Source of the DNA: a virus
Strand: one strand, 5' to 3'
DNA length: 64,000 nucleotides
Virus record (IMG/VR): IMGVR_UViG_3300003690_000002
Coordinates: 1 to 64,000 of that record
This document shows positions 3,616 to 5,762 of the stretch, piece after piece. Position numbers and translations under genes: made by a program. The notes beneath the pieces are model-generated. The model was given only the letters and a program-made list of their open reading frames with translations. It was not told the DNA's origin and made no database searches. How positions within the stretch are numbered: the first letter of the stretch is position 1; every line of letters begins with the position of its first letter.

Positions 3616-3951
3616 CTATTTTAATGGCCATTTTAACCCAGTCGCTTTTTCGAACTGTTGTACTGCTTGGTCTAATTTGTATTTGCTTTGATATGTTTTT
3701 GGATCATTTAAACCAACTTTTTTAAAAAAGTTTATATAACGCTTTTCCCGACCAAGTACTTTTGTAAGCGATCCAAGTTCTGATTTGGTACCTCGAAGGA
3801 CAATATCTGTACCTGGTACAAAACCAAAGATACGCCTCAAAAGGAGCTTTATCTTAGCAGAAAACATATCAATCCAGCCTTCATTAAGTTCGCCTCTGCG
3901 ATGAGCACCCAAATCGATTATAACTGGAGCTAAATCCTTTTGCTTTTCCAT
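3616..3951 (-). CDS. Small unknown protein between chaperone and tape measure
   Basis: This 111-residue, basic protein has no family I recognise. I chose the ATG at 3949-3951 because AGGAGA stands about 7 bases upstream of it. A longer reading would need a TTG ten codons earlier with no such site. The N-terminus has a short acidic/hydrophobic segment ending in DLGAHRRGEL. The rest contains Lys/Arg-rich segments and a C-terminal helix ending in KWPLK. It has its own probable promoter motif (3989-3996) and follows a terminator hairpin, so it heads a new transcription unit with the tape measure gene. A role in tail assembly is inferred only from position. Confidence 0.6.
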   Translation of the reverse strand: MEKQKDLAPVIIDLGAHRRGELNEGWIDMFSAKIKLLLRRIFGFVPGTDIVLRGTKSELGSLTKVLGREKRYINFFKKVGLNDPKTYQSKYKLDQAVQQFEKATGLKWPLK

Positions 3952-4002: not shown

Positions 4003-4043
4003 AACTATAAAATAAAAGCCGAAATATTAAATATTTCGGCTTT
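4003..4043 (-). terminator. Hairpin terminator after the tail-chaperone frame
   Basis: A perfect 13-base inverted repeat (arms 4015-4027 and 4031-4043, AAAGCCGAAATAT with its complement) encloses a TAA loop. On the minus strand the stem is followed by TATTTTATAGTT. It begins 22 bases after the TAA at 4066-4068. The symmetric A/T flanks mean it could also act on the plus strand, but no plus-strand gene is present. Confidence 0.75.
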
Positions 4044-4065
4044 ATATGGGTATTTTTAATATATA

Positions 4066-5134
4066 TTAGCGTCTTTGTGATGATTTACTCTTCGCTTTTT
4101 TCATAATTTTATCATGTTGCTCTTTTTCTTGTTCAAATTGCCTAGTCAGCCGAGCAACAAACCACTCTCTTATTGGTAGTGGTAAATTATATGCTTCAAA
4201 AAAGCTCCATCCGCCATAATATTTTAATAAAAAGAATTGTTCATATACACTTTGAATATATTCATCCTTTAGGCCAAAAAAAGTCTGCCGTAAACGGCAC
4301 CTCCATTTCTTGCTCTACATCACATTCTAAACATTCAAAATTTTGTGTTAGGTCTATATTTGGCACAATTTTACTGTAAGTTTCTCTTAAGTATTTTGCA
4401 TCAGATGCGGGCATATTATCAACAAATGAATGGACTGAGTTGCCATCGCTATGACCATTTACAGAAACAATCATTAATTTAAATTGATCTGTAACGGCTG
4501 ATTCTGGCAATTTATGCTTTTTTCTTTTTTCCATAAGTTGCAGTAGCTTTTTTTCATCTGTGCCCAACAACATTCGCATTTCAACATCGACTTTGGATCT
4601 TGGAAGTTTGAGCAAGTAAGTTCCATCGTCTGTTAATGTTGTGCTGTGTTCTTCAAGGTTTTCATCGCCATGCACAATTTTTCCACTGTTTAAATCAAAC
4701 TCAAACTGGGAAGATGCACCACAATTTGGGCATGTAACTTTTGTTTTATAATCGGCTCCATAGCCCGTAATTCTTGCAGCTACCAATATTGCATTTTTGT
4801 CCCCAACTAGAAGATTACTAATATTTATACCTTTATTAACTATAATATTTTGCAAAAACCGATCAACAGCCAAACCTTTTCTTAAAAGTGGCTTCGATGT
4901 TAAAATATCTTCATCTTTTGCTGTCATAAATCGAATCTCAACAGTATCAATCCTGTGTAAAGGATGACCTTCAGGATAAAATCTACCTTGTGATGGTAAA
5001 TCTACAAACTCCGTTGGAGTTGCAAAAGAAAATGTTGCTTGTGATTCATTTTGAGTGCCAGCTAACACTTCAGGTGGAAGAGCGCCAGTATCAGGAGTTT
5101 TGGCTCCGATACGCTCATCATTATTTCTGTTCAT
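4066..5134 (-). CDS. Frameshifted long form of the tail-assembly chaperone
   Basis: The gene at 4262-5134 can be extended by a +1 (or -2) shift on the T7 run at 4276-4282. Reading then continues from GGC at 4275 to TAA at 4066, adding 69 residues for a total near 355. The added frame has no ATG, GTG or TTG near its beginning; its only ATG is close to the end. Yet it encodes protein-like sequence, with segments such as YYGGWSFFEAYNLPLPI and a Lys-rich C-terminus. Its place between tube and tape measure matches the G/GT genes of lambda and E/E' of P2, whose long forms arise by frameshifting and act as tail-assembly chaperones. The alternative is a homopolymer error: with six Ts the gene would be one continuous frame. 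Confidence 0.6.
4262..5134 (-). CDS. gp26-like baseplate/tail-assembly protein, zero-frame product
   Basis: This 290-residue protein starts at an ATG with AAGAGG upstream. It begins with a flexible segment, then a conserved-looking region from about residue 35 (FVDLPSQGRFYPEG, then a KPLLRKG segment). Two cysteine pairs, CPNC near residue 135 and CLEC near residue 273, probably form one split zinc ribbon. This layout fits the T4 gp26 (T4_baseplate) family as I know it. The position just after the tube gene and before the tape measure also fits a tail-assembly chaperone. The zero frame ends at TGA 4262-4264, a few codons after the slippery T run. The family call is moderate and the exact function is inferred. 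Confidence 0.65.
   Translation of the reverse strand: MNRNNDERIGAKTPDTGALPPEVLAGTQNESQATFSFATPTEFVDLPSQGRFYPEGHPLHRIDTVEIRFMTAKDEDILTSKPLLRKGLAVDRFLQNIIVNKGINISNLLVGDKNAILVAARITGYGADYKTKVTCPNCGASSQFEFDLNSGKIVHGDENLEEHSTTLTDDGTYLLKLPRSKVDVEMRMLLGTDEKKLLQLMEKRKKHKLPESAVTDQFKLMIVSVNGHSDGNSVHSFVDNMPASDAKYLRETYSKIVPNIDLTQNFECLECDVEQEMEVPFTADFFWPKG
4276..4304 (-). promoter_or_regulatory. Probable programmed frameshift signal
   Basis: On the minus strand the order is GGAGG (4304-4300), a hairpin TGCCG-TTTA-CGGCA (4299-4286), then GAC and seven Ts (4282-4276). The zero frame reads TTT TTT TGG; the next frame reads TTT TTT, skips one T, and continues with GGC. An internal Shine-Dalgarno-like sequence and a hairpin upstream of a slippery run are recognised stimulators of bacterial frameshifting. 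Confidence 0.55.
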
Positions 5135-5156: not shown

Positions 5157-5762
5157 TTAACTTCCTAAACTAAAGAATTTACCTTTGCCATTCATCTCTG
5201 GATCTGTCGAGATATTTGCTTTGAATGAACCAACATTTAGTTCAGCCCAGTCATACCTTACCGTACATTCAATTTCAGATAGCCCATCTTCTTCATAGCT
5301 TAGTTCACTAAACGCCACTTTAGAAAGCCATGCGTTTTTTAAACTCCATTTCTCAACATCATCTCCATTCGAGTCGATTTGACGAATTATAATGTCTCCT
5401 AGTGATTTAATTGCTTTTCCTTTCGACATTGTAGTAGTATCATCAGCATTAACTGGAGGGTGATACCCAGCAGCAGTTATAATAGCCGCCATATTTGCGG
5501 ATGCATTTGGAGTAACAGGATCGATTAAAGTAAAGCTAACTTCCTCCCATGTAACTCTCCCAGGATAGTAAAAGGTATGGTTAATATATGCATGTTCAGC
5601 AGCGTTAATTGACAAAGTAGGTTTGCCTACCTTTTTAACGATCCATTGGTCGCCTGTTGCAACAACATTTAACAAAAATCTAAATGCTCGTTTTGGATCT
5701 CTTATTGGATTATTTGCGCCATCAACTGTTCTTGTCCAAAAATTTGGGGATTTGTCTGCCAT
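5157..5762 (-). CDS. Tail tube protein (gp19-like)
   Basis: This 201-residue protein polymerises into the inner tube through which DNA passes. The N-terminal half carries features of the T4 gp19 family: an early FRFLLNV strand, KKVGKPTLS, and a following FYYPGRVTWEEVSFTLIDPV segment. The C-terminal half has a Glu/Asp-rich strand pair (ELSYEEDGLSEIECTVRYDW). Its length is close to the 163-200 residues usual for this family. It lies immediately downstream of the sheath gene, as in T4, and has a strong AAGGAGT ribosome site. A candidate late promoter (5790-5797) lies 27 bases before the ATG, fitting the high copy number needed. Confidence 0.9.
   Translation of the reverse strand: MADKSPNFWTRTVDGANNPIRDPKRAFRFLLNVVATGDQWIVKKVGKPTLSINAAEHAYINHTFYYPGRVTWEEVSFTLIDPVTPNASANMAAIITAAGYHPPVNADDTTTMSKGKAIKSLGDIIIRQIDSNGDDVEKWSLKNAWLSKVAFSELSYEEDGLSEIECTVRYDWAELNVGSFKANISTDPEMNGKGKFFSLGS

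Follow-up and report, generated by a model that had tools for sequence, protein, structure and literature searches.

We analyzed a 64 kb window out of a 186-kb virus record. On the minus strand of this window, a gp26-like gene with the 3′ end GAC TTT TTT TGG CCT AAA GGA TGA is overlapped in the +1 frame by a 69-codon extension. The features of the locus and its neighbours are:

5157-5762, minus strand: tail tube protein, upstream neighbour (phrog_4542, E 2.3e-20)
5134-4262, minus strand: gp26-like gene in frame 0, putative short chaperone isoform (TAC-N), 290 aa, stop TGA at 4264-4262
4304-4300, minus strand: GGAGG, internal Shine-Dalgarno (SD)-like element, read from the sequence and from codon bias
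4299-4286, minus strand: hairpin TGCCG-TTTA-CGGCA with a 5-bp stem, between GGAGG and the slip site
4282-4276, minus strand: run of seven Ts, with the putative slip codon UUU at 4279-4277 followed by the skipped U at 4276
4275-4066, minus strand: +1-frame extension, putative C-terminal part of the long isoform (TAC-NC), 69 codons and TAA
613-3603, minus strand: probable tape measure protein, 996 aa, downstream neighbour, assigned from size, position and weak BLAST similarity

The gp26-like frame and the +1 frame meet at TTT TTT TGG (4282-4274, minus strand); the extension opens with GGC at 4275 and ends with TAA at 4068-4066. It contains no ATG, GTG or TTG ahead of residue 58, confirming the preliminary description of a frame without a nearby start codon, and the coordinates given there for the seven Ts, GGAGG and the 5-bp hairpin all match the sequence. 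Directly past the extension and ahead of the next gene lies an intrinsic-terminator-like inverted repeat (AAAGCCGAAATATT/AATATTTCGGCTTT; window 4014-4045, minus strand) followed by T-rich DNA. A small ORF (3616-3951, 111 aa from its ATG) is situated between the chaperone and tape measure genes, and no family match was found for it.

Upstream of the gp26-like gene are the tail tube and sheath genes. By BLAST, the 996-aa downstream protein showed weak similarity to the one annotated as tape measure in Flavobacterium phage immuto (E 1e-4), and family profile searches (PHROG, Pfam) returned no match for it. The gene order is tube, gp26-like gene and probable tape measure, which is the position of G/GT in lambda, the assignment at the tape measure end being a weak one. 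As at G/GT-type loci, two frames overlap, the downstream frame has no start codon and the slip site is conserved. Lambda G/GT and P2 E/E′ share with the window phage both this gene position and the logic of a short and a long isoform; the lambda tail chaperone, however, shifts -1 (PMC5009743), whereas the shift in the window phage would be +1.

The gp26-like part matched PF12322 (T4_baseplate; E 2.4e-16, 60.5 bits against a cut-off of 24.5) and phrog_150 (E 2.4e-19). T4 gp26 and gp51 both belong to PF12322, gp51 being about 48 residues longer. T4 thus has two PF12322 genes, whereas one was found in the 186-kb record, which may be incomplete, with no separate gp51 paralogue of the T4 kind. In profile alignments, whose E-values are those of single comparisons, the fusion of gp26-like part and extension could be aligned over its whole length with gp26-gp51 of cyanophages, itself taken as a fusion (280 columns, E 1.4e-13). 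The extension by itself matched cyanophage gp51 at E 2.7e-8, and the cyanophage fusion in turn matched T4 gp51 in an alignment that crosses the join (E 1.2e-19). The direct alignment of the fusion with T4 gp51 was colinear and weak (probability 28%). These comparisons relate the extension to the C-terminus of gp51, weakly when made directly and strongly by way of cyanophage gp51, and through this intermediate T4 gp51 corresponds to the long isoform, including its C-terminal helical part. In T4, two diverging genes give the two forms with no frameshift, whereas in the window phage a single gene and a +1 slip would do so.

The product is likely a pair of short and long tail-assembly chaperones. 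Frameshifting could be real and yet serve mainly another role, for example in a hub component or in expression control, and some studies have put T4 gp26 in the hub (PMC3004832). That source also lists gp26 and gp51 as hub assembly chaperones, and PMC10885494 and PMC12846349 cite Vladimirov et al. 2022 for identifying T4-like gp26/gp51 as tail-assembly chaperones. With the homology to these proteins and the position of the gene between tube and tape measure, we regard a main role outside the chaperone pair as improbable.

We used two sets of relatives with few contigs in common: the 80 closest relatives, found with the gp26-like protein (set 1), and 80 loci picked by the extension alone, the join not being used (set 2). 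The startless +1 arrangement was present at 81/81 loci of set 1 plus the window, with the join TTT TTT TGG or TTC TTT TGG (the latter in 9/81) followed by the +1-frame motif GL...Y[IM]..VYE.(F/L)F.... It was likewise present in 79/80 loci of set 2, where the joins were TTT TTT TGG in 67, TTC TTT TGG in 7, TTT CTT TGG in 5 and a longer T run in 1. The remaining locus (L181, near 2501) has nine Ts and CCT in place of TGG at the join, and keeps the +1 arrangement. Among 80 Flavobacterium-phage-type loci, the shift site was readable in 78, all with a startless +1 extension (40 TTT TTT TGG, 34 TTT CTT TGG and 4 TTT CTA TGG); of the other two, one lacks a W codon there and the second is truncated. 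A startless +1 extension was also present on three contigs from bacterial bins and in the isolate genomes of Microcystis phage Mel-JY01 (TTT TTT TGG) and Flavobacterium phage immuto (TTT CTT TGG), bringing the arrangement to more than 200 loci overall. No continuous gp26-extension fusion was found in set 1, set 2, the Flavobacterium-phage-type loci or the three bin contigs. This comparison of the homologous locus supports the claim of the preliminary description that a programmed frameshift makes a fused tail-assembly chaperone. In the public annotation of immuto (L083:5833-5943) and Mel-JY01 (L082:6734-6970), the extension begins at an internal ATG or TTG, and the fusion is therefore missed.

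Comparison of relatives shows protein selection on the extension: differences at the three codon positions were 0.32/0.19/0.56, and residues G1, L2, G21, Y29, P32 and R36 were invariant, the two phage isolates included. The gp26-like part and the extension were folded separately by structure prediction. The short isoform gave a confident predicted fold that matched viral baseplate hub proteins, including those of Bacillus phage SP-15 and Aeromonas phage 25 gp26, and the extension was predicted as a three-helix domain (pLDDT 88.8). In a fold search, the extension matched nothing in the PDB and only weakly matched viral proteins, cyanophage gp51 among them; searching PDB sequences turned up no match with the gp26-like part, and the matches to the extension were at chance level.

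The extension might instead be a separate small protein, for which translation would re-initiate after the gp26 stop at residue 7 of the extension, a weak start codon (ATT/ATG). This codon is ATG in 12/42 non-redundant relatives and ATT, ATC or ATA in 27, and the short ORF of jumbo phage BF has its own ATG overlapping the stop. Three non-redundant loci, however, have Ala or Thr at residue 7, and the +1-frame residues ahead of it are conserved (G1 and L2 invariant, Y6 nearly so). Re-initiation would also leave unexplained both the invariant UUU slip codon and the frozen synonymous sites upstream of the stop, and we consider it quite unlikely.

The slip codon behaves as expected of +1 slippage. 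The codon before the shift was UUU, sometimes CUU and never UUC in the clade of the window (sets 1 and 2), and both UUU and CUU re-pair on UUU one base forward. Among the non-redundant relatives, the slip codon was TTT in 42/42, whereas elsewhere in the gene 25% of Phe codons were TTC (log10 P about -6.4, assuming independence; kinship inflates this significance). UUC was allowed ahead of the slip codon, which abolishes -2 pairing and brings the T run down to four. At the four TTT CTA TGG loci, a slip from UUU to UUC is possible one codon earlier.

The preliminary description had left the shift as either +1 or -2. A -2 ribosomal shift, as used by Mu (PMC5009743), would reach the same frame, and either this or RNA polymerase slippage on the T run would suit the seven Ts found in most loci. 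But with TTC TTT TGG (9/81 and 7/80 loci) or TTT CTT TGG (5/80 loci and 34 of the Flavobacterium-phage type), -2 re-pairing is impossible and the T runs are only three or four long. The shift at such loci would therefore be +1, on UUU_U or CUU_U; of the two directions +1 was borne out and -2 was not, and we hold -2 shifting or polymerase slippage to be very unlikely. A homopolymer in a metagenome contig might raise the suspicion of misassembly, sequencing error or gene decay, but conservation refutes this: the closest 80 relatives and the 80 extension-picked loci keep the arrangement, as do isolates Mel-JY01 and immuto, and a wrong T count is untenable given the independent contigs, the isolate genomes and the TTC TTT TGG variants.

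The +1 reading is accompanied by constraint on the RNA just upstream of the slip codon. In 42 non-redundant relatives, with related sequences treated as independent, synonymous choice looked near neutral upstream of about codon -13, except at column -17, and strongly biased from codon -9 to -1 (z up to 9.5). The biased codons, GAG (z 7.0), GTG (6.0), CCG (9.5), GCG (7.7) and GAC (6.8), are those that form GGAGG and the hairpin. In particular, the Glu codon forming GGAGG was GAG in 31/32 loci with Glu at that position, against 12.4 expected. The hairpin of the window has a predicted energy of -7.0 kcal/mol, compared with -0.2 for synonymous recodings drawn with each gene's own codon usage; the family mean was -4.08 kcal/mol against -0.51 when recoded, and 0/200 recoded sets reached the observed stability. 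Exchanging the 3′ halves between 124 distinct sites weakened the hairpin from -4.24 to -3.04, with 0/300 exchanges reaching the observed value. Two stem registers predominate at these sites, and the stem shows compensatory changes (CCG/CGG to CCA/TGG and TGCCG/CGGCA to TGCCC/GGGCA). Synonymous constraint, hairpin stability and compensatory changes together support the SD-hairpin-slip arrangement proposed in the preliminary description.

In most loci, the 3′ end of the hairpin lies 4-7 nt ahead of the slip codon. GGAGG is 20 nt from the slip codon, a distance reduced to about 5-7 nt once the hairpin is looped out. GGAGG occupies its exact position in 82/124 sites and is absent there in about a third, and a stable hairpin is missing at about a fifth; neither element is therefore strictly required. 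On 70S ribosomes, +1 shifting is stimulated by an SD duplex lying upstream and, separately, by a hairpin in that position (PMC6321510), and the two may act jointly at the slip site of the window. Tentatively, and with confidence just short of even, we propose a new bacterial +1 stimulator, in which an SD 20 nt upstream is drawn near the slip codon by a hairpin forming behind the moving ribosome, and which would set the ratio of two tail chaperones in a large environmental phage group.

A close parallel to this signal is prfB, which uses CUUU, with a poly-T version read by tRNA-Phe in 21 genomes; its SD lies 3 nt from the slip sequence, and the A site holds a stop codon (PMC12421855). The locus, in the window phage and its relatives, resembles prfB in having an SD-like element, a slip on CUU_U or UUU_U (tetramers CUUU and UUUU) and an A-site codon that begins with UG. 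It differs in that 20 nt spanned by a hairpin replace the 3 nt, the distance falling to 5-7 nt only with the hairpin looped out, and in that UGG occupies the A site, the stop codon coming some codons later.

Taken together, the comparisons make it very probable that the locus encodes a tail-assembly chaperone as two isoforms, the long one arising by a +1 slip. Most ribosomes would terminate at 4262, at the end of the gp26-like gene, giving the short form. We infer that slipping occurs in a fraction of ribosomes, which would reach UUU (4279-4277) with UGG in the A site; peptidyl-tRNA-Phe would move ahead by one base, from UUU onto UUU, GGC would be read next, and translation of 69 more codons would yield a 355-residue long form. 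Pairing of GGAGG with 16S rRNA and the small hairpin would probably stimulate the slip. On the model of lambda gpG/gpGT, the short part would be expected to cover the tape measure protein, with the extension drawing in subunits of the tail tube.

Cyanophages of the P-HM1 (Kyanoviridae) type likewise have a short gp26 gene followed by a homologous extension, gp51. Unlike the +1 case of the window phage, the -1 frame of cyanophage gp26 is open through U UUU UUC ahead of the stop, and the shift there would therefore be -1. At cyanophage-type loci, the -1 frame was open through the T run in 76/76 untruncated cases, the heptamer U UUU UUC being located in 70; cyanophage gp26 ends with this heptamer and its -1 frame runs into a short gp51 (L279:9350-9557 and L280-L359). 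Cyanophage gp26 and gp51 are thus likely joined by a -1 frameshift. In the closest cyanophage group, a GCCCTC/GAGGGC hairpin directly follows the putative slip region.

Bacillus phage SP-15, Listeria phage LIS04 and Streptococcus phage GXN1 (L084, L085 and L086) have a startless +1-frame extension after a gp26-like gene and share NCC CGA TTY near the join; from these three sequences, the slip site of the SP-15 type may be NCC_C rather than UUU_U. In jumbo phages (Serratia phage BF, L087, and L089) the short ORF is separate, with an ATG that overlaps the gp26 stop (TAATG).

Frameshifted tail chaperones with -1, -2 and +1 shifts have all been recorded, including one with a very likely +1 shift in the haloarchaeal virus HSTV-2 (PMC5009743), which has an archaeal host and resembles the window phage in the proposed chaperone role and +1 shift. 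HSTV-2 is a better precedent than Listeria phage PSA, which the preliminary description had cited as a +1 tail-chaperone case and whose work, going by its title, concerns structural proteins. According to PMC10885494, some T4-like phages do without frameshifting and have one short gene plus a distinct gene for the long fusion, and poly-T -1 sites in T4-like chaperones are cited by PMC12846349. The literature thus already contains frameshifted chaperones, a likely archaeal +1 case and the chaperone role of gp26/gp51. Of the novelty claimed in the preliminary description, the chaperone role of gp26 has been known since the 2022 study, as cited by later papers; +1 frameshifting in the gp26/gp51 family and the SD-hairpin-slip signal appear to be new, with an earlier mention of +1 members in that study possible.

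Going by its title, the 2022 study on T4-like phages pointed away from frameshifting, whereas the present comparison indicates frameshifting as the means by which a large environmental clade makes its T4-type tail chaperones. Current annotation misses the extension or starts it wrongly, as in the immuto and Mel-JY01 records. The comparison also provides more than 100 naturally occurring versions of a compact +1 signal. Within one family, the long isoform would be reached by a +1 shift (the clade of the window), probably by a -1 shift (cyanophages), by a separate gene (T4) or by a split ORF (BF), a four-route series natural for asking how the ratio of short to long form is kept.
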